Shown here piece by piece: positions 52 to 64,000 of a stretch of DNA of 64,000 nt. The stretch's first letter is position 1, and every line of letters starts with the position of its first letter. The notes under the pieces were generated by a model that saw only the letters and a list, made by a program, of their open reading frames with translations, ran no database searches and was not told where the DNA came from. This DNA is from Sphaerolaimus hirsutus (lineage: Eukaryota; Nematoda; Chromadorea; Monhysterida; Sphaerolaimidae). Location: the NCBI GenBank assembly GCA_964036195.1, contig OZ038453.1, positions 19,381,206 through 19,445,205 of the forward strand, in the 5' to 3' direction. The translations under genes were made by a program, and so were the position numbers.

Positions 52-454
52 TCCGGGACTGCCACCAGTAAAACATCCATCATTTTCCACTCGAAAAATC
101 CCCCAATAAAATTATCCGATCCAAAAAACCCAGTGTCTTCATTATCAAACAAATACGGTACATGCATTATCCTTCATTCATACTATGCACATGCAATCGT
201 TCATTCACGGACGCATGCAACCGTTAATTTGTACATGCCTAGCTAGCGCCTACATAGCATTTTGTTTCACGTCTGATTGAATGATGGGCAGTGTGTCGGG
301 TGAGTGTAGGTGTGCAGTTTATAATATACACATATACATAAATATTGATCAGACCAGAGCGCTATATATTTTAGCGAAATTTACCGTATCTAAATGAATA
401 AGGTCACGTGATAAACTATCACTATGTTAGCCAATAGTGAGAGCGATGTAGTGT
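52..454. other. Non-coding, no feature seen
   Basis: Mixed AT-rich sequence without a supported coding exon or repeat end. Only short chance reading frames are present. Confidence 0.5.
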
Positions 455-8138: not shown

Positions 8139-8830
8139 CCGTCCAGCCCTCTGGCAATCATCACGCGAGATGTGTCTCCGTCTCGCCGCCCGCAACATAA
8201 CAGCGGGGCTAGTAATAATGGCACTTTGTGTCGCCTGCGCGTGTCGCCGCATCGAAGCTTCGTGTTGAAGAGACTGCACGCGCGCGACTTTGTTGCGAGT
8301 GGGAGTCGACCCGAGTCGACCTGAGTCGAGTTTTTATTTGAGTCGATTTTTTGTTTCGGGTCGAAATCGCGCGATTAAGTGTTATGAATTTGAGTCCCGA
8401 TTTTGGAGCGTGTCCTTTTCATCATTTTGATCGTGTCTGATGAAATCAACCTGAACCATGACAACATGGCATTTTACATGACATGTAAATATTGTGTGAC
8501 ATTTTACATGACATTTTGCAGTGTGCGGAACTGGCCCCTGGCAGGCATCTCAACTATCATTTCACTTCCGCTTATCGCGATCCAACCCGAAGTTTGTCGA
8601 GACTTTTCCCATCACTATCGCGCCTAAAATTAGCAACTTTCGGCTGCGTGTGTTTTCGTACTTTCGCAGGACAGATTAGCATCGTGTGTTTTACCGCCCT
8701 CCGCAATATTTTTGTGAATGACGCAAATCTTGTGAATGACGCGCACACTCGTACCCCATTGAGACCGGTTCTCAGCGATCTAAATTTATATCTGCTTGTA
8801 AACATCGCACTAATCAGTTCTGTTTTTTGA
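8139..8830. promoter_or_regulatory. CpG-rich single-copy sequence upstream of the DGK gene (possible promoter or 5' exon)
   Basis: Two CpG-rich patches (8139-8380 and 8560-8830) stand out from AT-rich surroundings and lie 0.7-1.3 kb before the first recognised DGK exon. Between them, 8478-8548 is half of an inverted-repeat element ending TGCGGAACTGGCCCCTGG, the same end as the insertion in receptor gene B. A promoter or untranslated exon is only an inference; I see no definite TATA box or splice donor. Confidence 0.25.
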
Positions 8831-19200: not shown

Positions 19201-22200
19201 ACTAGTCGTGTCACTGGAGTATAGTTAGCGCTGATTGGTAGTGCGAAATGTTTTCAGACCAGACAAATTTGTTAATTTTCAGGTAAGTAAGTAAGTAGGT
19301 AAAAATAAATAAAATAAAAAGATGTAAAAAAGATGTACGTGACATTTTGCCAGCCCTACAACCAGTCCCAGTAGAAACTCACACATTTCCAATACCCCCC
19401 CCCCACAGGAACTAGCCCTGCGGCAATTCCACATCGTCGACGACCCGTGCCGTTACTACCTCCACCTGCTGTCCGACTCGGGCACCGACGCCGGCTCCGG
19501 CACCGCCTCCAAGCTCAACGAGGCGCACTTGATCGCCACCGCCGTGCCTCGTCTGGAACGGTGCAAATTGTGCATTAGGAGTTATGATGCTGATGCGAGT
19601 GATATTTCGCTGAGGGTGTATATGAGCTGGTTGAAGGCTGGGTTAGTGGTGGGGTCGATTGTATTTACCGTATATCCGCGAATAAGACCCCAGGGGCCAG
19701 ATTTAAAAACATAATGCCCTACAAATATTCTTAAGTTATGCACTACACCCTACACGCGTCTCCCTACACGCCCGACAAAACCGTGTACAAAGCATTGTTA
19801 AGTTATGTGCGTAAGGCGCCCTATGAACCAATTTCCAATTCAATTCTCAGGTTTTGTCGGGCGCGTGGCCGACAAAATAAAAATAAAAATAAAAATCTGC
19901 CCTCCAGCAAAATGCTGTTGGGTGCGGTGAAAGTTAGGTCAAAATGACCGACGGAATAGGTAAACTCGGCAGACATGAAACGAGTCAGCTTTCTTTCTTT
20001 TATGTACGAGTAAGATTCGAAGTTGAATGGACGGATTCCGTTCGATTCACAGTTTTTTAAACCGATTGAACTTTCAAATGTGAAAAATAAATGGATAAAA
20101 CTAGGATATAAAAATACAGAGTTGGAAAGCTTGATTTTTCGCTCAAACAGTTCTAACGAATTCCTAAAAGGACAAATGTGATAGATATCCTGTATGTTAA
20201 CTTGGCACGCGTCAGGTTACGTATTTTACGAATGGGGTGAATGACGCAGAATTTACGTTTGCGTTACTCATTACGTCTGTGGAACACAATCAAGCAACTG
20301 GAAATGATCACAAATGTGTCAACTAGTGTACTTGTGATCATTTCTGGTCAATTTATAGCATTCCGCAGCGATAATCAGTGACGTGAACATGAAACCTGCA
20401 TTTTTTGCTCTCATTTGTCTGAAATGCAGAGCGACTTGGACGTGGGCCAAATTCACATGTGACCCTATCGTTGGTTTATACCGCACTCGTACAAAAATTC
20501 CTTAGACCATTGACTTCCATAATGTCCGCCGAGTTTACACACACTTCACAATGTATCCAGTGGATTTCAGGCCTCTTTCCTCAAATCTCAACACATTCTC
20601 TGCACACAGTGCTCCACCCTAAATACAGGTTGGCCCAAATGCAACGTTCTTTTGCTTGCATTGGCATTGTTTACACAATTTACACATTTTCTTTTTTTGT
20701 GAAACACTAAACAAAACAAATAAATATGCCCTACACCCGACACCTGTTTCCCGACACGCAATTGAATTGCGTTTTAAATCGAGAACTTAATTTTTTAAAT
20801 TAAACGAGAACGTTTTAAATTGACACATTACTCGAGAATTAAATCTGGCCCCAGGGGAGTTATTTTATCGTCAGAGTTTTTGAGGGGGGAGTTATTCGAG
20901 GGGGTGGTCTTATTTGAGTATATACGGTAGTTGGGTTTTGGTTAATTGTTTTTTTTTTTCTGGTGATTTTTCTGTACGTTTTGGATTTAATTGTAGATTT
21001 CAAGAATACTGTATTTACTCGAATATTTCCTCCGGGGGATGATTTTTTCCATCAGACTTTTTTGGAGGGGGCTCGGACTATCTGACGATGGAATTGTTCA
21101 AGGGTGAATTATTCGAGAAGGTGAATTATTCGAGAAGGTGAATTATTCGAGTAAATGTGGTATACGGTGTTTTTAAACAAGAAAATTCGAATCAAAATGA
21201 TCCGATCTCAAAATAGACAATAATCACAAAAATATGAAACACCTGAGGAAACGTTAAAATAAATCTACACAGTGTCAGTAAACTCGAAAATAAATGGCAT
21301 ATTCTGGAAGAAAACATTTTCTATCTTTTGTGTCTCACACAATGTGTTACAATTTATAAAAGTGCAAATAAAGTGCACAAAAATCAGACTATAGCTACCT
21401 AAAACATTCCAAATCCACATTGCAGCAACCCCACCTCTGCTCATTGTTCAATCACGGCCGGTTCAAATACAACTGTGAACAGTGCCATACAAATGGCATT
21501 AAAAGCTGTCGGTTTAAATGGAGACAAGTGGAACGATTATAATTTGGTTGAAGTTTCGCTGGATAGGGGAGGTTTGTTTTGGTGGTATTTTTTGTTTGTG
21601 ACACTTGTAACAGATGTCACAAAAAATGTCACACGTTCAGTAACAAATGCTGGGTACCCCTTCAACCCCCCAATTCACATAACCTCAAATATCACACAGT
21701 TGTAACTCGGGCTGCCCACAAAAGAAAACCCGATAAATCGGGCAAATAATCCTTCATCTCATCCCCGCAGTGGCCGAACGGTGCGTGTCACCCAACGAAA
21801 ATATAGTCACCCTGGCCCGAAATTTGCGCGCTCGCTCATTGCGTCATTGGCAACGAATTCGGTTCTATTTGCAAGAGAAAGAGGACCCTCACGGGGCCAA
21901 TGTGAACGTGTTTGTTGGCAACTTGCCAGTCAGCTTGATGCAAAGGCAGTATGAAAGAATATTGTTGAATCTGCTGGGAGCCTATGGTTGGTTTGTGGAG
22001 GTTTTTTCTTTGTGCAGACTGCAAGTTTTTTTAGAATGAGCTGTGAAAAGATGACAGATTTAAACATAGAATGTAACTTTGTTGAAATATTTGGTTTTCA
22101 GTTACATTTAACCCAGAAATGAAGAGATGATAAATCTCAAAGCACAGTAAGTAAATATCTATGTGCAATGCTGATGCAACATAAAATTGAAGTGAATGAA

Positions 22201-25200
22201 ATTTGCTGTGTGATAAAATATTTGTCCACTCTGATATTATATGGTAATACAATCATGTAAATAGCTACCTACCTACAAATAAACAGTAATAGATGACATG
22301 AATATGAACCTATTTTTACACCAGCTTGTTGCGCCAAATATTAAATTCAATGTCCCAAATTCCACAATCCACCATACCACAGAGCGTCCATTTGTCAAAA
22401 TCGGACCCATTTACTATGAATACGGTTCTCTGGTTGTCACATTTGACTCTGGGAAGGCGGCGTCTGCTGCCGTGCTCAGACTAAGAAACTGCACCCATGA
22501 TGAGAAAAAATTGCTAGTTATGTGTCTGCCTAATATACAGGTGATTTACTTGGATTTTTTACTAATTGTATTTATTCTTAGGTTAATGGATCACAACATG
22601 TTCTTGAATTAATATCCAATATCGAGTGAGTTCCCGGGATGCAGTCCCAAGCCCTGTGAACTGCAAAGAAAAGTGTTAAATGTCATGTACATGGTCGGGC
22701 TGAAAAGTCCCCGGGCAGTGCTCGCCATTCGCGCTAGGGGTGAGCTACGGTTATAAAATTTTAACACGTTAATATATCAGGTGTTTTGAGTTTTCACCCA
22801 AAATTTCACCCCTCTAGCTCCACCCACTGCGGAACTGTGGGGGTTACAATTTCTGTCATTTTGTACTGATGTACAAATGGTGCTCTAGCTCAACGCTGCT
22901 TTAAGTTGTGATCATGAAACTTTGGCTAGTGTGAGCCACCAGTGTTGGCAATGTGCTGATAATATTCAACACTTTCATCAACATCATTGCTATTAAGGTA
23001 AAATTAATATGCAGAGCAGGGTGATGTGCAAGAAACGTGGGAACTGTGGTGGATGTTTTTGGTCATCATCTGAGATCATGTTGTATTGCAGTGATTTTAA
23101 TGTTGTTTTGAAATGTGCAGTAAATTATTATGTCAATTAAATTTCATTTGTGTTTTATTACTAATCTGTAGTGGACACATTACCTGTGTTCAACAGCAGT
23201 GTGCATGAAAAACGTCTAGTGTATTAACCTGTATTGACCAATCGTAGAGGCAGAATGATGAATTTGGTAGTGAGAGTAGTGACAGTATTGACAATATGGA
23301 CTAGGCTTATGATATCATAGCTAATGTTGGTTAGTGCTGGCACATTGCCAACACTGGTGGCTTACACTAGCCAAAGTTTCATGATCACAACTTAAAGCAG
23401 CGTTGAGCTAGACCTAGAGCACCATTTGTACATCAGTACAAAATGACCGAAATTGTAACCCCCACAGTTCCGCAGTGGGTGGAGCTAGAGGGGTGAAGTT
23501 TTGGGTGAAAACTCAGAACACCTGATATATTAACGTGTTAAAATTTTATAACCGTAGCTTACCCCTAGCGCGAATGGCGAGCACTGCCCGGGGACTTTTC
23601 AGCCTGACCATGTAAAATGCCAATCAAAAGAAAAACAGAAAAGATTTCTTTATCAAACTTTGCATGGCAATTGACACTTTACTACATTTGTCATGGCAAT
23701 TGATACTTCACATGACATTTGAGATTTACTTTACACTTTACAATGCTTGGAACAGCCACCAGGTTCTGGGTCTGAGTCAACATAGTTCTTGAAAGTACCA
23801 AACTTATTTCAAAAGTTATGTTAATGCAGAGTATTTTAAATTACTTCATTTATGTGCACACAAATTATTCCTACAATCACAATTAAAAAACATCAAAAAA
23901 TTGATCATAAATCCCATTTGTGACCACCACTGTTGAAATCATCCACCATCTCTGCAGCCATCAGCCATTCCCCCTGGTGTGGAACCACTAATGGTTCTGG
24001 TCAATGTGAAATCTGGTGGATGTCAGGGTAGACAGTTGATCAGATCATTTAGAAAGTTGCTGAATCCATTTCAAGTGTTTGATGTGTTGAAGGGTGGACC
24101 ATTAGTTGGGTGAGTGTGGTTTTTTTCCCAATTGATAAAATGTTGCATTAGCACCCCTATATTTCACTGCAGGCTCTATGTTTTCCGCAATGTTCCCAAT
24201 TACAAAATTCTTGCATGTGGTGGGGATGGCACCATTGGATGGGCACTTAATTGTTTGGACATCACAAAACAGGTATGCCACATTTCAAATTTTTGGGATT
24301 GGGATTTTCGACAAAGCTTCAAAGCTGGTATTCAGGGTTTTTATTAAATTTTTCAACAAAAAGTTCAAAAACTCACATGGATGCCAGATAATTGGCATAA
24401 AATACATACTTGAGGTGTGGAGGTTCCCATTCAGATTACTTAGTGCCAAAAAAAACAAAGTGCAAAAAAGCAAATTTGGCAAAAAAATCCAAATCAGGAT
24501 TGGGAAAAGGAATGGGTTTTGAAAATCTTTGTGATCGGGATAGTGATTTGCATTTCAAATTTTCAGGATTGGGATCATGATTGGGGTTTTGGGATTGGGT
24601 TGGGAACACTGAATCCCAATAATTATTGTTTTTTTGGTATCAGAATTGGGATCCTTCTTTTTGAACCCTAATTTCATCCGACACAACAATTCCAGGATGC
24701 CGCTTGTTTTATGCCTCCATGTGGAATTATGCCACTTGGCACTGGCAATGATTTGGCCAGAGTTTTGCGTTGGGGTGGCGGATATTCCGGAGATGAGGAT
24801 GTGATGAAAATTCTGAAGGATGTTATTGAGGCAGAGCAGGTTGAATTTGCTGGATTTTAAATTGTCTATCCGGGATCTATACAGTATTGTTATTAAAGTA
24901 TCCATCCATAAACTCTAGTGATATACTAACCCATAGTGATCTAAAAATCTCAAACATCTCAAACAGGTGCAACTAGATAGATGGACAGTAGTATTGCACC
25001 AGGATGAGAGAAGACAGCAGCCTGGTGGTGAATCAGGCTCTGGCTATGACCATAATGACCCACATGGTATTGAGGATAATTCAAGTCTGATTACTATGAA
25101 CAATTATTTTGGCATCGGCATTGATGCTGATGTGTGCCTCGATTTTGGAAATAAGGTATGTGTTTTTGCGCACCATGAATAATAGTGGATTTTACTGGCA

Positions 25201-41174: not shown

Positions 41175-41812
41175 TAACTTAAAGCTGTCTTTTTATTGGA
41201 GACTGTCATTCAATTGCATGCAACCATTAGGTATGATGTTTTCATGAGTGCATAAACATACCAAAACTTGCCATTCTATTGGAGGTGCCTTTCTATTGGA
41301 GGTGCCCTTTTATTAGAGGTATGCCATTCCATTAGAAGAAATATGGTATCATGCTTTGGGGTATTACTACTTGTTCAGAAGCATACACGTCGTGTTTATA
41401 GTCCATTTTATTCCTCCAACTTTCTTAGTTGTAGTTTGTGGTTTGAGATTTTCTAATGGAACAAAGGGTATCCAGTTCTTGTGATTTCATTTGGTTTTCT
41501 GTCAAATATGGGTGACACAGAACAGATCTAAACAATTTTCGTGTGGAATGTTTGCGACTGTTATCACTATCATAAATCGTGCTGTATAGTTCATAATCAA
41601 ACATCATACTGTGATGTTCATGTTGATAAAACCTTCCCATGCAACTGCGTCATTTTCATCAAAAACTGAAAGCAGGTTGTCTGCAACATGCATGCTGTGC
41701 TCTGGCATTTGAAGTAACATTGTTAGGTACGTTACACTGGCAGATGTGATCTGAAAAATAGCTGCACATTATTGGCATTTTACACAACTTGAGGGCAGGT
41801 TATCTGACTGTC

Positions 41813-42351
41813 AAGCCGGAGTTACAGCTCAGCGTTGATTTGATGTAAAATGACGGTGTAAGATGACATCATATACACCTTCCCGGTCAAGTAAGCCACC
41901 CATTTTTTTATTTCACTTCGGAAGCTATATATCTGGCTATGGTGGGGTTATAGAGCTGAAACGTTGTGAAAATATACTTGTAACATCCTTCTACTCTGTA
42001 TCAGTGGGGGGAGGCATGGCGACTAACTACAGGGTGGGTCGCCCTATATGCAACAATTTTTTTGCCGGGTTTACAGTGTCCCAAACAAGTACACCACCCC
42101 CTTGATTAGCTACACTAAAGGGGCTGTATCTCCAGTTGCGGGGGTGGTAGAAAGCTAAAAATTTGGGGGTATCTTGGCAACACCCTACTATATGCCAGTG
42201 GGGCAGCTCCCGACGACTCACCACAGTTTGTGCCGCTGTGTATAAAGTTATTGTTTTTTAAGAAAACGACCCAAGTGTCCCAAGCAAGTTCACCACCTAC
42301 ACAAAGTTCACCAACATTTTTTGTTTCATGCGTGAGCTGTAATCGCGGCTT
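41813..42351. mobile_element. Inverted-repeat element in the last intron of receptor gene A
   Basis: Arms AAGCCGGAGTTACAGCTCAG and, inverted, AAAGCCGCGATTACAGCTCA, the same GATTACAGCTC end as the element at 15015-16034. Inside, CCAAACAAGTACACCACC and CCAAGCAAGTTCACCACC recur. No coding capacity. Confidence 0.6.
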
Positions 42352-42367
42352 TAACGCTGGCAGTGGC

Positions 42368-42509
42368 TAGGGTGTCAACAAATTCTGTTTTGCAGAGAAT
42401 GGAAACATAAACAGAAATTTTTTGCTCTTACCGGAAAATGGAAACAGAAATATTTGTGCCTGTAGAAAACGGAAATATATGGAAAACGGAAATATGACTG
42501 ACACCCCAA
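42368..42509. mobile_element. 142-bp TAGGGTGTCA element with GGAAA motif
   Basis: Begins TAGGGTGTCAACAAATTCTG and ends ATGACTGACACCCCAA; flanks GCAGTGGC/GCAGTGGA match 7/8. The body repeats ATGGAAACAGAAATTTTT. Smaller relative of 45120-45409. Confidence 0.75.
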
Positions 42510-45119
42510 GCAGTGGAAAGTGGCCAGTGGCAACTTCATCAATTTGAAATTGTGATGAGGATAATGTCACTTACTAACTGCGCTGAACTTACACTTAATA
42601 ACACTGATCTGTTTATTACTGCAATATGCCCAACTGTTAACATCATATGAGACTTTTCAAGCTTAGTAATCAAGCCATATAGTGCCATGTATTTCTGTAA
42701 AGTTTGCAAATTCTGCAATGCAGTACAAAATGCTGTCATACACTTCTTCAACTTTCACATCCTAAATTAATCTTATCAGTATATATTGAGTTCGTTGCAT
42801 TGATTGAATGATGAAAAAAATTCTGAAATAAATTTTTTATTGATGTAAAACACTGCCTGATATTCTCTTTTTTTAAATTCAAAACCAAATGCTTATTTGC
42901 AGACAAATTTGACAAACTTCCAATGAAAGCCCAATTGTAAATGTTTGAATGTCCTTTCAACTAAAGTTACATAGGCCCTATATCCATCTCAAAATATATT
43001 CAAAACCGTTGAAATTGAAAAGTAAAAACCTCCTTAGTGAATGGCTTCCAAATGTTCCCTTCTTCATACAATCTTTCCCCAACTTTCTGCAGCTGAAATG
43101 AAGTAAACAGTTTTTTTCAAATGTGTCTAAGAATGACCACAAACATGCAAGACAAAATCTAACCAGTTCATAGACATATGAAGTCAGCATTGTCATTACA
43201 AGTATGGATACCAAAGGGGCACAGTGACAAAAAATGTGAATAATGTCATTATTGTCAGTTGACCTCCTAACACCATTAAGGTAAAGCCATAGCCAATGAG
43301 AACAAGTGTTGAAATCACTGCCGCCATATTGACAAGCAAGTATTTGTTGAATATTGTGTTGAGATCCTGCAATGTAGGTACACCGTACACATGTACAGTT
43401 CAATGTCAACTCATACTGAACATTAAGAAATAAATTGTTTTTCACACTACTGTCTCATTTGAGAAATGAACACAATTCAGAATTGATTGTTATTGTAATT
43501 GTAACTATTATACAGACATAAAAATAACCACCGAGGTTTCTGGGACAATAAGAAAATATAGCCATTTTAAGCTGCCTATTCTCAATGTTATTTTTATGCA
43601 ACAAATGTTTGTGCATGCAGGTATTCTGATTTTGATGCTCTTTGTCAGGGTTGGCAAAATCTCAGAAGAAAATAAGATGAAAAATAAAATGAAAAATAAA
43701 AAATAAAATGAAAGATGAATAAAATTAAAAATAAAATACAATTTTCACAGAATTTTACTACAATTTTAGTAAACAAACATTTACTAAAACCAACCCTGCT
43801 CTTGGTTTTAGTAGTTATCATGTAATTTTCCCTCTATCTGAAGACCTACCTCTGTTAGTTTGTAGAAGACATCATGTGATTTCGCTATCTCAATTATGGA
43901 ATCATCATGGTTTGGGTTTGGTATTTGATTCAATTTAGCTCTGATGGTAACATTATTGAAATATTTCATTTCAAATATTGTTGCTAAACTGGTTAGAAAG
44001 TAGACATAAATTGCAATCAGCCAAGCACAATCACCCCATTTCAGCAAGATATTATCTAACACTGAGTTAACAGCTATTAAAGCAGCCACAATGTTGAAGG
44101 TGACAGAGTGTGCATAAATACTGACAAAAAAACTTGCAGCTGCTATCTGAAAACCAGCGGCCGCGATATTTCCTAGACAGAGTATTATGAGAAGCCATTT
44201 TGACCCAGTTTTCCATCGTACAAATGCCAGGTTGTGAGATATTTGAAAACTGTACATAGAAATATAACCTATTCTACTACATCACACAGAACACACATGA
44301 CCAGTATTTTAGCTGTTGTTGTGGTGTGTATAAAATGCTAGCAAAATTTCATTTTCAAGTTATTTCAATGTTCTTCTGTATTTTTCTGCCACTTCATCTA
44401 TGATCTTTAAATAAAACATGCCTGCTGTTTTTCCCTGGACATAATATTAACGGAAAATACAAAAAGCCCTTTTATTGTAGTATCAGAATGTGTGAACAAT
44501 AACGATGGCAAACCCTTCAGAAAAAAGCATTCAATTTTTTTTAAGTATTTTGTCTAAAATAACTTTTCAAATTTTCGAATTTTTCCCTGAAACAGTTTCA
44601 AATTTAGTTTTCAAATTTTAGAATATTCTATTTAGTTTTTGAATTTTTGAATTTTTGAATTTTTTGGTAGTTTTCAATTTTTTTAAAATAGTTTTCGAAT
44701 TAAAATTTTTTTTATTTAAAACTATAATTGCAGTATTTGGGTAGTCATCATGTTCATGTAACTTTTTAGGTATTATTTTGACAATTGTATAGCATTTACA
44801 GCAAACAAAGCTTTAAATACAGTGTTTGGGTAGTCATCATGTTCATCTAACTTTTTGAACCTTATTTTCACAGTTGTTTAACATTTACATCAATCAAAGC
44901 ACTTACGTTGACCAGTTTATGATATCTATGTTTCATTCAGTCATCGATACAAGAACAGGGAAAGGCAATGAAACAAAACATTTGAAAAATCAATGACAAT
45001 ACACACAACTCAGGTGTAGTGACTGCACACACTCTCTCTGGTTACAATTCACTCGAATCATAACCTCTTTTCTAGAGACTCGGAAGTCAACATTTTTACG
45101 TTTTGATTACAGCTCAGAC

Positions 45120-45409
45120 TAGGGTGTCAAACAAAAATTTTTGACGGAAAACGGAAATGGAAAATTTTTGCACTTGCCGGAAAACGGAACGGAAAATGGA
45201 AAAAAATTTGCCTGCGGAAAGTGGAAAACAGAAAACAGGAAGAATTTTGCCTGCAGAAAAGCGGAAACGGAAAAGTTTTGGCACTTGCCAGAAAACGGAA
45301 ACGGAAACGGAAATTTTTTTGCACTTGCCGGAAAACAGAATGGAAAACGGAAAAAAATTGCCTGCGGAAAGCGGAAACGGAAAACGGAAAACGGAAACTT
45401 GACACCCTA
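45120..45409. mobile_element. 290-bp hAT-like element made of GGAAAACGG words; TSD GCTCAGAC
   Basis: Begins TAGGGTGTCAAACAAA and ends AACTTGACACCCTA with perfect 8-bp flanks GCTCAGAC (45112-45119 and 45410-45417). Almost the whole interior is GGAAAACGGAAA alternating with TTTGCACTTGCC and TTGCCTGCGGAAA. It therefore has ends plus iterated motif and little else. Nested in 44500-46012. Confidence 0.92.
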
Positions 45410-45466
45410 GCTCAGACACACTGCAAGTCAATTGTCAATTGATTAAGAATGTTGAAATTAAGAATA

Positions 45467-45852
45467 CCGTATTTCTCCGTGTAAAGGACCCCCCGTGCAC
45501 AACACCCGGGGTGTTATACAGCTGCATAGCACCCCGGGTGCTATGCTAGGTTTCAAAAAATCACTGATTTGAATTGCTTAAATATCGCTTAAATGGCGCG
45601 CGACACTCATTGTAATTCCGCGGCGCGCATTTTTCGACTGGATTGCTGCACGCTGGGAACCGAAAAAGCCTAAATATGTTGTGACGTGTATCATAAATTT
45701 AAAACGAAAGCACACTTTTTAAGTTTAGTCCAGTTTCCATGTATAACACCCCCTGACCTAACACCCGGGTGTTATACAAGTTTTAAAAAAAGGTTGCTGG
45801 AAAGGGTCTCGATTTTGTATAGCACCCGGGTGCTTTACATGGAGAAATACGG
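45467..45852. mobile_element. CCGTATT-ended element with CACCCGGGTG motif
   Basis: CCGTATTTCTCCGTGTAAAG to GGAGAAATACGG, TA on both sides. The iterated word is TGTATAACACCCGGGTG / GTGTTATACA, different from the GGGGGTATTTCGAGG members. Nested in 44500-46012. Confidence 0.75.
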
Positions 45853-46181
45853 TACATATCAATGCCTTGAAGACCCTCAAAAATTTGAAAAGTTTTCGAA
45901 AATCGATTTTTATGTATTTTTTTCACCGAGTGCTCAAAAATTCGAAAAGTCCAAAAAATTCAAAACTTCAAAAACGTTTTCGAATTTTCGAATATATTTT
46001 TTGCCATCGTTAGTGAACAAATGAAGGCTTACATCAGACACATCTTTCCCAAGAGATCAAAACATTCAATGCACATAGGTAGTGATGGCTTTTTACATCA
46101 TTACTGATAATATTTAATATATTAACGATATCATATTTTATATTTATACATCATATAAAGAAAGAGTGCAAAATTGCACTT

Positions 46182-47471
46182 GCCTCAGGCGGGAATAGTG
46201 ATGGAAAAAGCGCCAGGCTTTTAGCGCCAAGCGCCAAAAGCGCCATGGCGCTTTTCCTACCCACAGCGCCAAGCGCCAATGGCGCCAGAGCAAAATAGCG
46301 CCAAGCGCCAAAAGCGCCATGGCGCTTTTCTGAACCTCAGCGCCAAGCGCCAATGGCGCCAGAGGGTAATGGCGCCAAGCGCCAATAGCGCCAGCGCCAA
46401 AAAGATTTTCTTGAATTTGTTTGTAGAATAATGAAGTCATAGCTGTGATGTACCGCTGATGTCCATGTAGTCAATTTAACTTTTGCCATAAAAGTTGAAT
46501 CAACCATGTTCAAACAGTCCAATGTTCCTCACACAGCTGATATTTAGGTGGACTTATTTAAGCGACGTTTATTTGTTCCTTATTTGGCTAACAGTTGGAG
46601 TGATTGTAGGGCTTATTCAAGAATTTATGGTATTTTTGTTGCTTTACAGAGCAATTTATTGTATTCATAGTAGTTAAAATGTATTTACATTTACTGGAAA
46701 AAAAATACAAATACTTGCACACAGAGTAAATACTGTATTTGCTCAAATAATTCCCCTGGTGAATTATTTTTTCATTTGACCATTGTGAAGGGGGGAACCA
46801 TTCAGGAAGGGAAAGTGTTTGAGGCGATTAGAAAACATAAAAATCCATTTCCTTGAAATCAACTCTTAGTTATCAATGTTTATCACTTGAGGCTTAAAAT
46901 GAAAAAAAGGTGGATGAATACAATACCAGTACATTTTTTGATCAAACAAAAGTATTTGCTCCACTTCCAAATATGAGGACCTTTTGAGTAAAAAGTAAAC
47001 ACATTTAAACACCTATGCTTGTGTACTTTGTATATAATAAAGTTGTCTCCTAATATTTATCAATGTTTAATAACTATTTATGTCCCATGACACACTTACA
47101 CAAATCAATATTTATTCAGTTGCTCTCAAAATTGAGCAACTGGAGTGTCGATTTCACAATATTATAGTAATTTTTATAATCATGGTTGGCGCTTTTTTGG
47201 CGCCATTCAAAATCCCAGCGCCGGGCGCCAATAGCGCCACCAGAAAATGGCGCCAAGCGCCAAAAGCGCCATGGCGCTTTCTCAGACCCTGGCGCCAAGC
47301 GCCAATGGCGCCAGAGCGTTTTAGCGCCAAGCGCCAAAAGCGCCATGGCGCTTTTTGCTTTGGCGCTAGCGCCAGGCGCCAGCGCCATGGCGCTTTTCCA
47401 TCACTAGGCGGGAATCGAACCTGCACCTCTCGTATAGAACACGCGTTTCCTAACCACTAGACTACAGAGGC
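46182..47471 (-). tRNA. tRNA-like gene (anticodon UCU, Arg) split by a hAT-like insertion
   Basis: On the minus strand 47471-47407 reads acceptor GCCTCTG, A-box TAGTCTAGTGG, anticodon loop GTTCTAT and B-box GGTTCGATTCC. The sequence resumes at 46187-46182, beyond the 1211-bp element, and supplies the missing acceptor strand, ending CTGAGGC. Joined, it gives a four-arm tRNA of normal length with one mismatch in each of three stems (acceptor T-T, anticodon G-A, T-arm A-C). A TTTT run follows in the 3' flank. The mismatches and the location inside a receptor exon suggest a tRNA pseudogene or tRNA-derived SINE head. Because of the insertion it cannot now give a mature tRNA. Confidence 0.8.
46196..47406. 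mobile_element. 1211-bp hAT-like element with GGCGCC arrays inside a tRNA; TSD GGCGGGAA
   Basis: Begins TAGTGATGGAAAAAGCGCC and ends GGCGCTTTTCCATCACTA. The 8-bp duplication GGCGGGAA (46188-46195 and 47407-47414) is part of the T-arm of the tRNA-like gene, so the empty site can be inferred exactly. Arms are GGCGCC/GGCGCTT arrays; the core (46415-47180) includes a half CCGTATT-variant arm at 46737-46810 and has no transposase. Confidence 0.95.
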
Positions 47472-48807
47472 GGCTGGGCTCTTCACTATTAGGGGCTGAC
47501 ATGCTGTGTCAGCAATGCCCTTAACAATAATATAAATATTTTTCACACCCCAATCCTCATACTAGAATGCAAAAGGAGGTATACACTGATATATTTAATT
47601 CAGGTGAAGCTTTGTATCTTGAGCACCATATTTTTATTTTAAAATTTTTGACAGGTGTCAATGTTCAAACTGATGAGTCATATATGTTTGTGGTAACCAT
47701 GGCCAGATTCTAAGGAATAATCAAAATGATGATTCTGTAGCAATTAACAGTCTATAACTGTAACAAACACTGGTTGTATTTTCTGACAGTGCAATTACAG
47801 TGCACAACACTTTTTAAAATAGGGCTTTTTTCATTGTATGATTTATTGCAATGAAGTGAGTTCTTTCTGACAATAGAACACAGTATCTTGTGGTCAAATT
47901 GGAGACTTGCCAATATGCCTGTGATTTTTGGTATATTGCAAAACAGATATGAACTGGGAAGAACCTGTAAATTATTGTTGAATCAAAAAACACTTACCAA
48001 AAATAATGCAGACCACAAGCCAGTCAGGTTTTTTACAAATGCCGCCATACTCCTCAAAACATCCGGCTCTCTTATACCCTTTGTAAAATCAATTTTCATT
48101 ACAAATACAATGACTGATGATGCTGATTTAAGGGTAAGCATAAAGAAGACAACATAGCGGAAATATTGAACAACTTTTTCCCACCCATTATTGAGTGACT
48201 TGTGTGGCTTGAAATATAGAAAACTGAGCTTCCTTATAAATGCTGGGCATTCTAACAATTGCAACATTTCATTTTGCTTTTTATTCTCATCATCCAGCTT
48301 TCCCAGTGAAAGTACAGTGGGGTTTTCGTGAATAACACATCCAGCCAGGTCATCTAGTTGGTGTGCTGATGTGTAGAATGGATAGGCCTTCTCTTTGAAG
48401 TTCGGCGGTGTACTCAAATCGCCTGTTCTCACTGAAGATGGGTTAGTGTGGAATTCAGCTTGTTTTGGCTTGCTGCTCATGCAGGCATTCATGTCAAATC
48501 TGGGCATTCTGTGTAAAATTATCTGCAAATGTTTTTTATTGTCAGGATTTATGATCATATAATAAAGAGCTGTACATGAAATGCTTACATTCTAAGTGAA
48601 CAACATTTTTACATTTTGGCAAACTATTCAATTTTACTTGGGTCAGTCATTTCTGTTGGTGACGCATCAAAGGTATGTTTTAAATAGGAGATTTAAGGTA
48701 TCTTTAACATAATCCAGTTTCCATAAAAGTTTACTTGCTACCGCACACCTAACCTTTTACACAATTTTTATTATTATTAATAACTGAAAATATACATATA
48801 ACAACAA

Positions 48808-54747: not shown

Positions 54748-55012
54748 GAGTCGTTAAAAGTACTGCAATGAAGTCAATGCATACGTAAAAGTATTCATTT
54801 ATTTACTCACCCCCAGAGTGCAGAAAACCATGCTTGAATATCGATAATGCAAAAAGGTCAATTATTCAACTAATCAGAGTTGTTAAAAGTACTGAACTTT
54901 TTTCAAAGTATACATAAACGTAAAGTATTTATTTATTTAGTCACCCCCAGAGTACAGAAAACCAAATGCTTGAATATCGACAACGAAAAACATCAATTAT
55001 CCAACTAACGCG
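54748..55012. repeat. Tandem duplication of a GTTGTTAAAA element end (about 130 bp x2)
   Basis: Two successive copies start GTCGTTAAAAGTACTG (54750) and GTTGTTAAAAGTACTG (54882), and both run through CACCCCCAGAGT, CTTGAATATCGA and CAATTAT-CAACTAA. The second copy overlaps the 3' edge of the minus-strand exon at 55206-55010. Confidence 0.6.
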
Positions 55013-55206
55013 TCAACTTTTACAGATGGCCGGACTTTGCGCTTGTTGCAGTGAGTGCAGCGCAGCGACCCGGTGCCGTTTTTATGCTTGCTTAAGGTGA
55101 ACCGGAACCAGTGGTCGGGATGCAGACGACTTTTGTAGTAATAACAAGTGGCACTTCTTTCTGTGAAGCCACTTTTCCAATCTTCAAGCCGCCCAAAATT
55201 TGCCAT
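55010..55206 (-). CDS. First exon of an unknown Cys/His-containing protein
   Basis: Reads MANFGRLEDWKSGFTERSAT then YYYKSRLHPDHWFRFTLS and LRCTHCNKRKVRPS. The HW...RCTHC arrangement suggests a small zinc-binding module, perhaps like those in transposon proteins (FLYWCH-like), but I cannot assign it. A TATA-like GCATATAAATAAG lies about 50 bp upstream on the minus strand. Likely 3' donor GTAAAAG near 55022. Divergent from the plus-strand gene at 55708, about 500 bp away. Confidence 0.45.
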
Positions 55207-55680
55207 ACCAACAACAATATGCACATATTTTGCATCGTGAAATTCTTCTTATTTATATGCATGGTTGCCGGTAGTTGGTAATTAAGTATTCACTAATCTA
55301 GGTGTCGGCAACAAACCATTTTATTTTACAGATTAATGTCGTTATTTTCCAAGATTATCCTATGCATGTCGCTTTCTATTTGAAGTTCTTAAGTGCACGC
55401 GACCACACTGTATCCGGTTTGTGGGTTTATGCATACTTGGCATGACGCAGTGTTGTGACTCAATCTATACCTGCAATTGAGTCAGAGCACCTGGCCTATA
55501 CTTTACGTTGGGACAAATTTATACCCTACTTCCAGACGAATCTTCCGCTGCCTGATTCAATCTTCCGCTTTTCTGCGGAATTTATTAGCTGATTGAATCC
55601 ACAACCAAAGTTGCGGAGTTATTTACGTGATTAAATGCACCACATTGCGGAGTCCGTATTTGCCCGTACTAATGGCATGC

Positions 55681-55707: not shown

Positions 55708-56480
55708 ATGACAAAATATGTACTAAACTCAACTCAAAAAATGGCTGCGCAGCCATGTTGCACACATAACGGCGACCCCCTAATTGCTATTATTCACCCC
55801 TCTAAATATCATGGTGACATTACCAACCAGCTGGCTGGTGCTGTCGGACAGGTGTCAATCCCAGATCCTGCAAAATGCCCTGTACAATGACAAATGTCAT
55901 GTAAAGTGTTAAAAGTCATTTAACACTCTACATGACATTTGTCATTTTACAGGGCATTTTGCAGTGTCTGGGAGTGCCCCCAGGCCGGATTTGTTGCACT
56001 CGTTGGCACGCTAGACAAGCAGCACGTTCGGCATTTCGAGCGGAAAGGGGGTACAACATGCGGCCCAGTTAACATGCCGCGCCATGTCTACCACTGCACC
56101 GGCTGCCGGACCGCAAAAAATGGTGCGCGGGGTCTTTATTTTTTGCCTTCTGTTTGTTAATTGGGCTTCTGTTATTTGATTTATGTATTATTTCTCCAGC
56201 GTCTCTGCACAATCAATTATTGCCTACACGACAACTACACGGACGCGCAGAAGGGCACTTTGTTGACCTATTTGCGCCATGTCGCTTTTTTAACAGGGGA
56301 CGTACAACAGCTGGCCTAGGATGGGTGTCTGTTCCGCACATGATTATTTATGTTGACGTGATCATGCACATTTTTTACCAATCGTTTTTGTACACTACGC
56401 TATTCGCTGCTAAATTATTTCGGTCATTTGATAGAGTGGATGAAATAAAATTTACGCTATTTGCTACCTATGCATTGTGA
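55708..56480 (+). CDS. Unknown small-intron gene with a Cys-pair motif
   Basis: Exon 1 (55708, or 55741 for MAAQPCCTHNGDPLIA, to 55851) ends GDITNQLAGAVGQ. It joins in phase 0 to exon 2 (55984-56122): AGFVALVGTLDKQHVRHFER, GPVNMPRHVYHCTGCRTAKN. Exon 3 begins at 56200 after CTCCAG; the in-phase reading is ASLHNQLLPTRQLHG..., with a stop at 56480, but another frame (RLCTINYCLHDNYTDAQK, TYLRHVAFLTG) looks more protein-like, so the splice choice is open. The intron 55852-55983 is an inverted-repeat element from end to end. YHCTGC recalls RCTHC in the divergent gene. Function unknown. Confidence 0.45.
55852..55983. mobile_element. 132-bp fold-back element acting as an intron
   Basis: Starts GTGTCAATCCCAGATCCTGC and ends with the inverse-type CAGTGTCTGGGAGTGCCCCCAG; the arms continue as TGCAAAATGCCCTGTA...ATGACAAATGTCATG, so nearly the whole 132 bp pairs with itself. 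Its first bases are GT and its last AG, both flanked by CAG. Removing it joins two open frames in phase 0. See the finding on intron-like elements. Confidence 0.7.
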
Positions 56481-58138: not shown

Positions 58139-61100
58139 CTATGTTGTACCTGTATCATTCAACAGGTTGAAATCTTTCAAAAGTGTTTCCGTATCATACA
58201 TAAACATTGTGAATGGGTCACTAACAGCCTTTTTTTGCTCTGGCATTTGAAGTAACATTGTCAGGTAAGTTACTGCTAATGATACAATCTGAAAAATATA
58301 CATGTGTAAGGAAAGTAATATTTTCAGTGTTTCAATCATTCAAGCTCTGCTGCAATCTGTTGTGGTACGTTGTTATTGAGTTCTAAGATAGTGTTCCAGA
58401 TAATGGGTGTTTTTCAGACATAAATTTAAAAATAGCTTATATTTATCAGAAAATCTCTAAAAAATAAAATTAAATCTCTCTGAAAAAACCACACAGAAAA
58501 TATGAATACCGTATTTCCTCGAAATACCCCCCCCCTTGTTTGACCCCCCCCCCCCCCCTCTCGAGACCACTATGAGACAATCACCCCCCCCCCCCTCGAA
58601 ATACCCCCCAAATTGAGTGTAAAGAGAACGTACATGACAAATACTGCAGTTTGTGTTCTGCGTAGTGCAGAACACACGTTAAAACAATGTTGGAATCACG
58701 TTAGAACAGTGTTTATACCATCTACGTACTAATATTAGTATACAGGAATTGATACATGACAGTTATTGATGCATTTTTCTACCCCAGCGCACATCACAAA
58801 CAACGATTTTGTACTAGGATTTCAAAAAAGGTCTTGTGAAATAACCCCCCCCCCCCCTCGATTAACCCCCCCCCCTCTCGGGAGCACTATGAAACAATCA
58901 CCCCCCGGGGGGTATTTCGAGGAAATACAGTAAATATGAAAAATATGAAGAGTGTTGTCTTTTAATATTATTGTCATAAAATAAGTATACCTTATTAAAT
59001 CTCCCAGGAAAAACCCAGAGAAAATATAAATAAATATAAGATTATTTAATATTTTCTTATTAAAAAATATAAATCTCCCGTGACTTCTGGAACACTAATA
59101 TCATATACTGTGAACAGTGGGCACAGTCCACATTCAGAGGAGGCATTAGCTTTCATCATTCACTTACGCTCAGCATGGCTGGCCTATTGATGTAACCAAT
59201 GTGGCCAACTGCCAGAGCCAAAGTTGGTTTTTCAACTCTACACATCTGGGGGCAGTCCCAGAACCAGTAAAAGACCATGCAAAATGTCATGTGTCATCTG
59301 AAAGACCAAGTAAAGTGGCAGGTGTCATGTAAAATACTCTGTATAGTGTATAGTGTCATGTAAAAGACTGTGAAAAATTCCATGTGTACCCAAATCTTAT
59401 TTTATTGTAGCCAATCTGATGTTTTTACATCCAGATCTTACCTGTATGTAGACATAAAAGATTTGGATATAAAAAGTCTTCACAGAGTCTTTTACAGGGT
59501 CTGGGACTGGCACCAGGCTGTATAGTGCCATATACTTCTGTAATGTATAGGAATTTATTTTTACAACTCAGTAAAACTTGTGAATGTAATTTTGTGAATG
59601 TACCCGTGGGGTGACTGGTATCCAGTTGTTTTTTTCTTGGTAAATTATTTCCCCAGCCTTTTGTAACTGAAATGAAGGCAAGAAAAATGTTATACCGTAT
59701 TTCCTCGAAATACCCCCCGGGGGGTGATTGTTTCATAGTGGTCCCGAGAGGGGGGGGGGGGGGGTTAAACGAGGGAGGGGGTATTTCGAGGGGGGGGGGG
59801 TTATTATTTCACAAGAAAATTTTTGAAAACCAAGTACGAAATTGTCGTCTGAAACGTACGCAGACGTCGAAAAATGCAACAAAAACCGCCATTTATAAGG
59901 TTCTGTAGACTAATATTAGTATGTAGATGGTGTGTACACTGTTCTAACGTGACACCGACATTGTTTTAACGTGTGTTCTGCAGTACACTGAACACAAACT
60001 ACAGTTATTGTCATGTACGTTCCCTTTACACTCAATTTGGGGGGGGGGGTGATTGTTTCATAGTGGTCTCGAGAGGGGGGGGTCAAACGAGGGGGGGGGT
60101 ATTTCAAGGGGGGGGGGGTATTTCGAGGAAATACGGTAAATGTATACAGAGGAAAGTGAGCGAACTGCATGCTTTTCACAATATTTTTTATGTCAGCCTA
60201 TAATTTTGGCTCCTTTACTCAAGTATAAATAAATGTAAGTATTTAATGCATAAGGGGACTGTGATAAAAATTTCTGGTTAAAGTTTCTACATATTCAATA
60301 TGTAGTTTTTCCAGTAGAAACATTAGCTAGAAAAGGAGAAGCTGGCAGTGTTAGAGGTGGCTGACATCGTTTTAATTCCATATTTGGTCGAATAAATCCA
60401 CCTTGAATAATTCACCTCAGACGAGTGAGAAAAAAATAATTCCCCCGTATGGTTTTGTGTCCAATTTGAACAAAGATGGTTTATTTCTGTGTTAATAAAG
60501 CACATTTCGTGGTACAGGTTGATAGAAACATGTTTGAACATTTTGACTAATTATTAATTCCTCCCACTGAATAATTCCCCCTCAAATTATTAGGGCAAAT
60601 ATGGTATCAAGGACAAATTGTATTTTACCTTATCATAGACATATGAAGTATGCACTGTCATCACAATGATAGATACCATAGGTGTCAGTGCAGTGCAGAA
60701 TATTTGTAAAAACGCATATAGGATATGAGTGAGGTCTGCACTAGCCACTATCATGACAAATGCGTAAACCATAAGAACGAGTGTACCGATTACTGCAGCC
60801 ATATTGATCAATAAATACATGTTGAATATAGCATTGAGATCCTGGGCATTAGATATTGAATAATTTGATGTATGTATAACATATTGAGGCTTCTCATGAC
60901 AGACTTACTTGTGTTGCCTTGTAGAATTTGTCATGTGTGTTCACCATATCATAGGTATCCATAATTGGATCAATATAATTGCCTGACTGCTTCAGGTAAT
61001 TTCTCAAAGTTACATTAAAGTGTTTTATTTCAAGAACTGTGGCTAAACTGGCCAGAAAATAGATATGCAACGCTATAAGCCAGGCACATTCACCCCACAG

Positions 61101-62372
61101 CAGTGTCAAGATGTCAAACAACTTATCAGTGATCTCTAAAACAGTCTCACCACTTACAGATTGGAAAGCAAAATAAATCGAAAAATCTATGATTAGCTGA
61201 ACTTGACTTCGCATTATTGTAAGACAGCAAAAAGTTAAAAACCACTTTGATGCTTTCTCCCATTTCACAAAGGTTTTTTTCATTGTATCACCTATTGCTA
61301 TAAATTGAGTTCTTACTGATAACATCACACAATATTCACCAGCAATGTTGGCAACTTGCCAGTATGCCTGTGATTTATGATGTCATATTTACAAAAATGC
61401 ATAAGTGAATGAACACTACAATAATAAAAATATGAGAACCTACCAAAAACAATGCAGAGGACAGGCCAGTTAAATTTTTTATGAATTTAGCCATCGCTTT
61501 CAACACCAATGGATCCCTTACTCCTTTTGTAGTATCTGGTGCCAGTTCCGCAAATTGAGAAGTGAGAAGTAAAATGGCAAATGCAAAGTGAATTGAGAAG
61601 TGAGAAGTGAATTGAGAAGAAAATTGGCAAAAGTGAAGTGAAATGGCGAGTAAATTGGCAAAAGCGAAGTAGAAAAAATATAAATAAAAAGTAATTTCCC
61701 TTCGCTTTTACCAATTTCCTTCTCAATTCATATCTCACTTCTCATTTCATATCGCATTTGCCATTTTACTTCTCACTTCTCATTTTATATCGCATTTGCC
61801 ATTTTACTTCTCACTTCTCATTTCATATCGCATTTGCCATTTTACTTCTCACTTCTCATTTCATATCGCATTTGCCATTTTACTTCTCACTTCTCATTTC
61901 ATATCGCATTTGCCATTTTACTTCTCACTTCTCAATTTGCGGAACTGGCCCCTGTTGTTGAAATAGAAAAACACATTGTGGTTGCCAATTTGGAGATGAG
62001 CAAAATGAAAAACACATAACGAAAGTATTGGACCAGTCTTTCACACCAATTTTTCAGTGACTTGTGGGGCTTGAAATATAAAAATGTTATTTTTCTAATA
62101 AACTTTGGCCCTTCTAAGATTTTTAGCAGTTTTTCAGTTTTAGTTTTGTCTGCATCCACATTCCCAGTTGAGGCTTCAGTGGTGTTTCCATGATTTTGAT
62201 GAATTTCACATCCATACAATTCATCCAGTTGATGTGCTGATGTGTAGAATGGAAATGCTCTTTCCTTGACATTTTGGCTGACATCCAAATCTTCTGCTCT
62301 CACAGAAAGTGGGTTACTGTGCATTTCAGTTTTTGTCAGATTGCATTTTATGCATTCAATCGTATTGAACAT
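58139..62372 (-). CDS. Gustatory-receptor-like gene B
   Basis: Paralogue of gene A: a seven-transmembrane chemoreceptor-like membrane protein of the 7tm_7/gustatory class, about 499 aa. Exons: 1a 62372-61952, 1b 61535-61444 (interrupted by a 416-bp element), 2 61367-60909, 3 60841-60629, 4 59666-59604, 5 59537-59514 plus 59246-59168 (interrupted by an element), 6 58288-58139. Landmarks: PFYTSAHQLDELYGCEIH, FIRKITFLYFKPHKSL, AYWQVANIAGEYCVMLS, WGECAWLIALHIYFLASLAT, YLLINMAAVIGTLVLM, KYMALYSL, and the family signature AVTYLTMLLQMPE at the end. All other exons are phase 0 and GT-AG. The start was chosen at MFNTIECIKC by alignment with MPRFDMNACM of gene A. Function depends on whether the two insertions are spliced out. 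Ligand unknown. Confidence 0.82.
58509..58930. mobile_element. 422-bp CCGTATT-family element in receptor gene B, last intron
   Basis: CCGTATTTCCTCGAAATACC to GAGGAAATACAG, TA on both sides, C-run arms. Surrounded (58391-59095) by an AGAAAATATAAAT/AAATCTCTC motif array with TAGTGTTCCAGA ends, the same motif as at 12.0-13.3 kb, so one element is nested in another. Confidence 0.75.
59247..59513. mobile_element. 267-bp inverted-repeat element inside exon 5 of receptor gene B
   Basis: On the minus strand it starts GTGCCAGTCCCAGACCCTGT and ends GGTTCTGGGACTGCCCCCAG. Inside are AAAAGACT/TGTCATGTAAAATAC words. The ends match the family of the fold-back intron at 55852 (GTGTCAATCCC/GTGCCAGTCCC). Excising a segment displaced by one base (GG...AG) gives exactly the length and frame of gene A's exon 5; splicing at GT...AG is one base out. 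Confidence 0.75.
59695..60136. mobile_element. 442-bp CCGTATT-family element in receptor gene B intron 3
   Basis: CCGTATTTCCTCGAAATACC to GAGGAAATACGG, TA on both sides; G-run arms and the shared core (ACGCAGACGTCGAAAAATGC). Confidence 0.8.
61536..61951. mobile_element. 416-bp inverted-repeat element inside exon 1 of receptor gene B
   Basis: On the minus strand it is preceded by CAG and ends CAG. Its ends are GGGCCAGTTCCGCAAATTG and, inverted, GTGCCAGTTCCGCAAATTG. The core (61738-61930) is five tandem copies of about 36 bp (ATTTCATATCGCATTTGCC). Removal with one CAG gives a frame and segment length identical to gene A (...TTDTTKGVRDP against ...KIDFTKGIREP). The half-element at 8478-8548 has the same end. 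Confidence 0.8.
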
Positions 62373-62492
62373 AAATTTTAGAAATTTCAAATATGTCACC
62401 AAATGGCCTGTGATTGTTATGTCAACAAGGAAAAAATACACATAAATAAATATGAATAAAAGATGCATAAATGTATTCAATGATAAAAACAT

Positions 62493-64000
62493 GAAGTTAT
62501 GTTCTTAGAGCGAACCAAAGTAAAATACTGGATTTTATGGGCACGGGGCTGACTTTAATAGTGTTGGAAAAAGCAGAGGGGTCAGTTTCAATCTTCACTT
62601 TTTTACATAAATCATTTTTCAGATAACAAAGCATTTTTGCCAAACATACAAAATGTACACTTCACTCAATATGACAATGCGTTAGCTGAAATCTCCGCTT
62701 AAATCCTTGATGAATGATGGTATCAAGCTATCAACACATTTCAACATGCACTAAATTTGTCACTAAATAGTACATGCATACATATCTACCTAAGTATGCG
62801 GTGGATATATTGAGCAGTTGGGTATAACTATCAAGCATGCATTAATTAGATCTTTTCCAAACCACAATAATTCACAGAAGCATGCTTTCAACGGAGCACT
62901 TTAAAACACAATGAACATAATTCCAAAATGACAGAAATATTGTGTAGTCCTTGGTAAGGTAAGGTTAACATGTACAGAAAATAAATATTGTGGTTTTTCA
63001 GCATACAAAGTAACATGATCTCAGCAACCATTTTTACTTCCATTAAACAAATTGAGTAACATCAAATTGAATACAGGAATTACATTTGAAAAAAGCTTGC
63101 CTTACCACTATTATTTCACATCAAGTTTTTATATTGTTTGTCATGCTTTCATCAAAATGAAGCAGTGAAGGAATGAAGCATACCAAAATAAATACACATA
63201 CGCACAGTACTTAATTGCACTGATTAATTCAATTTTCATTGTGAATGATATGTGGATCTCAGCATGGCTAGGAAGACTAAACATTGGCAGAGAAAACAAA
63301 TACTTCCACAGCACTGTTTAAGTAAATCATAGTTATGTGCAGCATGCAGAAATTCTATGATAAAATATACATAATTTTTAACTTTGATAAAACATAGTGA
63401 ACCTGTGAATGTACTCAACATTATGCACAAAAAATACACAAAAAAATATCAATGGCAACAAACAAAGCATGTCAACAAAAAAACTAAACTTCCCCACCCA
63501 ACTAATATTCCAAATCCAGTAACCCACTGTTATGCAATTGACCATGACCCATCCAATGAAATGAAACCAGTGCACAAAGAAAACATTCATTTTGCACAAC
63601 ATTTACTATATGTAGGTTTTTGCCATGTGCCAAGGCAAATGTAACCATCTAGAAACGCAGCCCATCTTTCATCAGTTGATCAGTTGTTTATTAATTTTGC
63701 CCCAGAGGAATGAGCGCAAATGAGATTGTCTACGCCATTTTGCAAAGTGAATGGTACGCTTGTAACTGTATAGTGGATGTGCATTCTGCACTGAACTGAA
63801 GCTAAGTTTTGCAATTTGCATCAAGTTGGTTCTGTGAGTTTATTTTTTCTGTTTTTATAGCTTTTTTTGGGATACTGTTCTATGTGTTTATTTGTGGGAA
63901 TACACTGCAAAAAAGCATCACAGTTTTATCCCATGCCATGACAATTTAGCAGAAATTCAAATTAAATAGTTAGCTGCATCATATGGGTAGCATGTCAATT
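62493..64000. other. No gene supported
   Basis: AT-rich sequence upstream of receptor gene B. A 74-codon minus-strand frame at 63602-63378 is hydrophobic, but it has no receptor motif and no splice context that I can defend. No repeat family from the rest of the window ends here. Confidence 0.4.

Follow-up and report, generated by a model that had tools for sequence, protein, structure and literature searches.

The 64-kb stretch of DNA analysed here (the window) carries four two-ended elements, E1–E4, that appear to form a small transposon family with related ends, a grouping that is well supported within this window. Two of them, E2 and E3, both seem to have been inserted into previously uninterrupted exons of one gene (gene B), which is also well supported, and a third, E1, lies in a putative gene (gene C). 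The inverted-repeat ends and CWG flanks of the elements point to MITEs, and E1, E2, and E3 are probably introner-like members of that class. E1 and E3 are bounded by GT and AG, and, judging from the sequence, there is about an even chance that both are spliced at these edges. The positions of the elements and the genes around them are listed in Table 1.

Table 1. Elements, element ends, and gene features discussed in the text (window coordinates)
Feature	Position	Strand	Description	Basis
Lone end-like motif	55..68	-	At window edge	Pattern; weak in profile search (E 0.35)
Lone family end	8493..8537	-	Opposite end not found	Ends list, profile search
E4	22638..23759	-	Larger copy, 1122 nt, related ends	Profile search; exon edges by eye
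Gene A exon homologous to E3 site	42593..42694	-	Uninterrupted, 102 nt	
Gene A exon homologous to E2 site	47998..48591	-	Uninterrupted	
Gene C candidate exon 1	55741..55851	+	MAAQPCCTHNGD...QLAGAVGQ; putative gene	Fused translation
Left CAG of E1	55849..55851	+	Target-site copy; also final 3 exon bases of the CAG/GT donor	
E1	55852..55983	+	Fold-back plus right CAG; candidate 132-nt GT-AG intron	Sequence, fold, edge comparison
Right CAG of E1	55981..55983	+	Target-site copy; candidate acceptor	
Gene C downstream open frame	55984..56160	+	AGFVALVGTL..., ends at stop	Fused translation
Gene B	58139..62504	-	Six exons, five GT-AG introns; E2 and E3 split two exons, giving eight pieces	
E3	59246..59513	-	In gene B coding exon, GT...AG edges, 268 nt, phase 0	
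E2	61536..61951	-	In gene B coding exon, 416 nt, GG at donor edge, phase 1	

The fold-back element E1 and its putative host gene

A preliminary description of this locus reported a near-perfect 132-nt fold-back that starts with GT, ends with AG, and has CAG on both sides, and each of these points was borne out. E1 opens with GTGTCAATCCC and closes with GCCCCCAG, as read in the sequence. Folded as DNA, it reached -54.5 kcal/mol, whereas shuffled versions averaged -12.2 (z -15.7) and none of the 200 did as well; its RNA fold, with the flanks included, gave a z of -12.9. If CAG represents a 3-bp target duplication, E1 proper comprises 129 nt (55852-55980), with the termini GTGTCAATCCCAGA and, reverse-complemented, GGGGCACTCCCAGA. 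The earlier assignment to a transposon-type element agrees with the presence of inverted-repeat ends between CWG flanks.

As had also been described, the removal of E1 fuses the adjoining frames in phase 0; the product has 95 open codons followed by a stop, and the unspliced reading frame into E1 meets a stop at codon 13 of the element. The joined frame is only suggestive as evidence of coding, because 320 of 20,000 trials with shuffled flanks were likewise stop-free in a fixed frame over 96 codons. The GC content beside E1 was 0.51 (exon 1) and 0.60 (55984-56131), as opposed to 0.42 and 0.38 in the flanks, and a TATAAAA motif lies approximately 60 nt 5' of candidate exon 1. The predicted protein had no Pfam match above the cut-off and no PDB match. 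A pattern search of viral contigs with this protein returned three matching stretches, none of them related, and no in-frame join to a next candidate exon was found by eye. The status of the E1 host as a genuine gene is less certain. A short Cys-containing frame, translated by hand and without a Pfam match, lies divergent from gene C (55000-55210, minus strand).

A family of elements with related ends

The preliminary description proposed a search for the ends of the element; carried out over the window, this search gave no enrichment with the short end and recovered family members with a longer one. With up to two mismatches allowed, the short end GTGTCAATCCC occurred 16 times in the window, about as often as expected by chance (14.6), and the majority of the 37 sites in the ends list at up to two mismatches were unrelated. 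The longer degenerate end CWGGKGNCANTYCC was found eight times in 64 kb, compared with 0.04 expected in shuffles, a count that is partly circular because the pattern was drawn from the same copies. A profile built from eight ends recovered a ninth that was absent from the profile, at 22641-22681 (nhmmer E 3.6e-5), and this end pairs with another at 23759 to define E4.

The right arm of E1 was 77% identical to that of E3 over 52 nt and 80% identical to the lone end at 8493-8537 over 49 nt. Likeness between copies was strong only across the outer tens of bases, and the interiors were mostly dissimilar; in the profile search, E2 had mainly its outermost bases in common with the family, its interior being its own. 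E1, E2, and E3 each have one GTG and one GGG terminus, and E4 has GTG and GAT. In gene sense, the flanks are CAG and CAG for both E1 and E2 and CTG and CAG for E3; those of E4 are CTG and CCG. Matching CWG pairs were thus present in two of the four copies (E1 and E2), and the pairs of E3 and E4 were mismatched. Related ends reach the candidate intron edges in E1 and E3, and the donor edge of E2 is GG. As RNA, E2 and E3 folded better than their shuffles (z -16.8 and -5.5, respectively). The arms of E3 were identical at 29 of 60 positions without gaps, so that E3 looks old, unless it was asymmetric from the start. Within E2 (61552-61952), tandem units of approximately 38 bp have apparently expanded inside the element.

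Five copies were counted, the motif at 55-68 being excluded, and three of them occupy coding or putatively coding exons, with a rough P of 0.002 to 0.027 that assumes coding fractions of 6 to 15%; the coding length was measured for gene A (1538 nt) and gene B (1611 nt, with its last exon shortened) only. Pattern scans of viral and prokaryotic contig collections yielded no matches, which is of little information for an animal family.

E4 reads as lying in an older intron, the host gene being diacylglycerol kinase theta-like and the exon edges having been placed by eye. Fragments of this gene at 21899-25146 (plus strand) correspond to RBD_DGKtheta, DAGK_cat in three pieces, and DAGK_acc, the last below the cut-off, and a C1 domain is located at approximately 11097 among the diacylglycerol kinase theta-like fragments. 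Of the six fragments scanned, four reached the Pfam cut-off and two fell below it, with E4 situated between two fragments. That E4 made its own intron is unsupported; it lies 12 nt after a donor-like GTGAGT. A 204-nt inverted repeat (22688-22891 and 23411-23614, 97% complementary) is contained within E4.

Insertion into two exons of gene B

When E2 and E3 are removed, gene B contains 543 open codons, with its stop at approximately 58139-58141 as computed from the exon lengths. The protein has about seven hydrophobic segments by hydropathy, and from its motifs we take it to be gustatory-receptor-like. It had no Pfam match above the cut-off (Deltameth_res matched weakly, below it) and no match in PDB.

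The preliminary description pointed to orthologues lacking the intron as a check; with a paralogue, gene A (approximately 41.6-48.6 kb), standing in for orthologues, uninterrupted counterparts were found at both the E2 and E3 sites. Gene A carries neither insertion, and A and B were identical at 245 of 465 aligned residues. Cutting E3 out at its GT and AG edges leaves a gene B exon of 102 nt, the same length as the corresponding A exon. Among 60 equal-length options scored for this junction, three tied for best at 61 of 102 identical positions (others, 60); only the one at the element edge is GT-AG among these three, and identity alone leaves the junction unfixed. At the E2 site, exact removal produced a gapless junction with a score of 453, compared with 436 for the single alternative scored, which has two extra residues. 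It is because both A exons are uninterrupted and exact removal restores B that E2 and E3 appear to have entered uninterrupted exons.

The A/B dN/dS was 0.28 over 465 codons (dS 1.3, near saturation), a comparison that omits the unaligned ends and the portion of A exon 4 with the shifted frame; this ratio shows past constraint only. In gene A (41647-48591, minus strand), exon 4 is 203 nt long, 10 nt shorter than the 213 nt in B, and loses the frame, and exon 3 breaks off after MKK, its homology resuming approximately 3.6 kb away, where an unusual intron is possible. Overall, gene A looks damaged, and gene B could therefore be heading the same way. A fragment of gene A gave only a weak Pfam match, to AsnC_trans_reg2, below the cut-off. 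At 47410-47423 (minus strand), beside GCGCC-rich repeats, lies GGTTCGATTCCC, which we take to resemble the B box of a tRNA-derived SINE.

Candidate splice sites

All splice scores were obtained with an approximate splice matrix. On this scale, the five host introns of gene B have donors of 3.7 to 9.5 and acceptors of 1.4 to 11.9. The donor (CAG/GTGTCA, 4.0) and acceptor (2.8) at the edges of E1 fall inside the host range, at its low end. Two internal acceptors of E1 score higher than that edge (8.6 and 4.5); their use would shift the frame, and both form base pairs within the stem predicted for the RNA. The edge donor of E3 (1.8) is under all five host donors, and an internal donor 72 nt inside the element (CAG/GTAAGA) scores 11.1, in frame and with 24 codons open (59405-59445, minus strand). 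In E2, the nearest in-frame GT to the GG donor edge scores -4.9, and better donors just within the element come after an in-frame TGA, so that splicing at the edges is no fair reading of E2. Not all copies are intron-like, because the donor edge of E2 lacks GT and E4 is apparently inside a pre-existing intron.

Proposed mechanism and alternative explanations

We infer that a MITE of the NuwaI/PHIS type may have inserted at CWG, that E1 and E3 may be spliced at their edges, and that the hairpin may aid this, a combination that we regard as evenly poised between right and wrong. E1 would be one copy of a cut-and-paste DNA transposon, non-autonomous and targeting CWG. If such a copy entered a coding exon at CAG with GTG as its upstream end, the result would be ...CAG/GTG......CCCC/CAG/..., in which the donor would be supplied by the transposon end and the acceptor by the duplicated target; splicing would then restore the message to its uninterrupted form. 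Pairing in the hairpin would draw both edges together and hide the internal AGs. E1 fits this scheme exactly. E3 would fit if its target was CTG (gene A has TTG) and the right copy subsequently changed from T to A to give CAG; this change after insertion would be needed for its acceptor AG because its CTG and CAG flanks are mismatched. The preliminary description had set out the same logic, a CAG duplication with one splice site from the element and one from the target, and had noted two further insertions with the same type of ends in exons of gene B. Both insertions are real, but only E1 and E3 have GT...AG edges in gene sense; E2 reads GG...AG.

The GT-AG appearance by itself is weak evidence, because GT-AG edges would, by our estimate, arise in about one-quarter of random insertions of an element with a GTG end into a CAG target. 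The same estimate speaks for ordinary gene-breaking MITEs, in which case E2 (and perhaps E3) made gene B a pseudogene, E1 sits in a chance or decayed frame, the GT-AG appearance is a by-product of the family's ends and CWG target, and none of them is spliced. The GG donor edge and in-frame stop of E2 agree with such an account, as do the apparent damage to the sister gene A and the lack of relatives of the E1 host in Pfam, PDB, and the viral contigs. We nevertheless consider it rather unlikely: the pieces of gene B outside E2 and E3 are open over all 543 codons and joined by GT-AG introns, and if E3 is as old as it looks, decay would be expected in a dead gene, unless the arms of E3 differed from the beginning. 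The A/B dN/dS adds little here, as it speaks for past constraint only. It would be a good deal less probable still that the elements are spliced at internal sites, each adding codons, with 24 residues gained through E3 and other internal sites used in E1 or E2. The strong, in-frame internal donor of E3 and its open codons favour this account, and introners are described as being able to add codons, those of Aureococcus contributing 12 bp (PMC9860276); against it, the stronger E1 acceptors shift the frame and fall in the predicted stem, and the good internal donors of E2 stand behind a stop.

Insertion into pre-existing introns apparently did occur in the case of E4 in the kinase gene. As a general account of the elements, we hold it to be highly improbable: gene A is intronless at the E2 and E3 sites, which disfavours it for these two, and the element ends match the exon edges to the base; intron loss from A would be possible and is unneeded. 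The faintest prospect is a chance palindrome with a chance GT and AG, with which the unremarkable frequency of the short end would agree. For the fold-back itself, chance is refuted by the fold z of -15.7, though the GT and AG could be chance, and the existence of four copies with both ends, alike in their longer end sequence, also counts against it.

Relation to known elements and implications

The NuwaI group of PHIS is described from 16 animal genomes as having a 5'-CWG-3' TSD and TIRs that usually start with GGG, with lengths of 12-61 bp (PMC4482050); the TIR length is not directly comparable with that of our elements, because the arms of E1 span nearly the whole element. Judged from the ends and flanks alone, the family resembles NuwaI/PHIS (PIF/Harbinger-like), and the likeness is good but incomplete. 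Partly shared are the CWG flanks, which form matching pairs in E1 and E2, and the GGG terminus, present at one end of E1, E2, and E3; the inverted-repeat ends and the animal host also agree, whereas the second end is GTG here and the flank pairs of E3 and E4 are mismatched.

The logic of a donor in the element and an acceptor from the target is already described for introners, with Chrysochromulina as an example of the class that takes its acceptor from the target copy (PMC9860276). As in that class, transposon ends coincide with the candidate splice edges (E1 and E3), the acceptor would come from the target copy, the insertion appears to be into an exon (E2 and E3), and the message length would be kept if E1 and E3 are spliced. 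Unlike that class as presented in the survey, the family here has a 3-bp CWG target rather than 4 bp, TIRs, and few copies, and its splicing is putative. Introner elements of Amoebophrya (PMC7789003) are also presented as having hairpin inverted repeats and direct repeats of 3-5 nt at exon edges, but as forming mainly non-canonical introns, with repeats of 8-20 nt, whereas E1 and E3 would be GT-AG. The introner survey reports introners in two animal groups only (PMC9860276). Our literature search, with most subscription papers outside its scope, found no paper joining introners with NuwaI or PHIS.

Maize Ds is a DNA transposon that, when inserted in an exon, can be removed from the transcript by splicing near its ends, as E1 and E3 would be; it differs from the present family in superfamily and target length.

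The origin of new introns in animals is poorly known. We tentatively suggest that a NuwaI-type family may act as a source of ready-made introns in an animal, and that gene B may have gained at least one intron in this way. On this same reading, which we regard as possible but short of probable, insertions at CAG whose GTG end faces upstream would be born as introns and leave the message unchanged, and those at CTG would need one base change, as E3 appears to have undergone. If this is true, the target preference of a transposon would be tied directly to the splice consensus CAG/GT...CAG/, and intron birth would be testable for each copy, as the orientation of the GTG end and the target base (A or T) would predict which insertions are spliceable. 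If the elements are spliced in RNA, they would represent an introner family of the NuwaI type in an animal.
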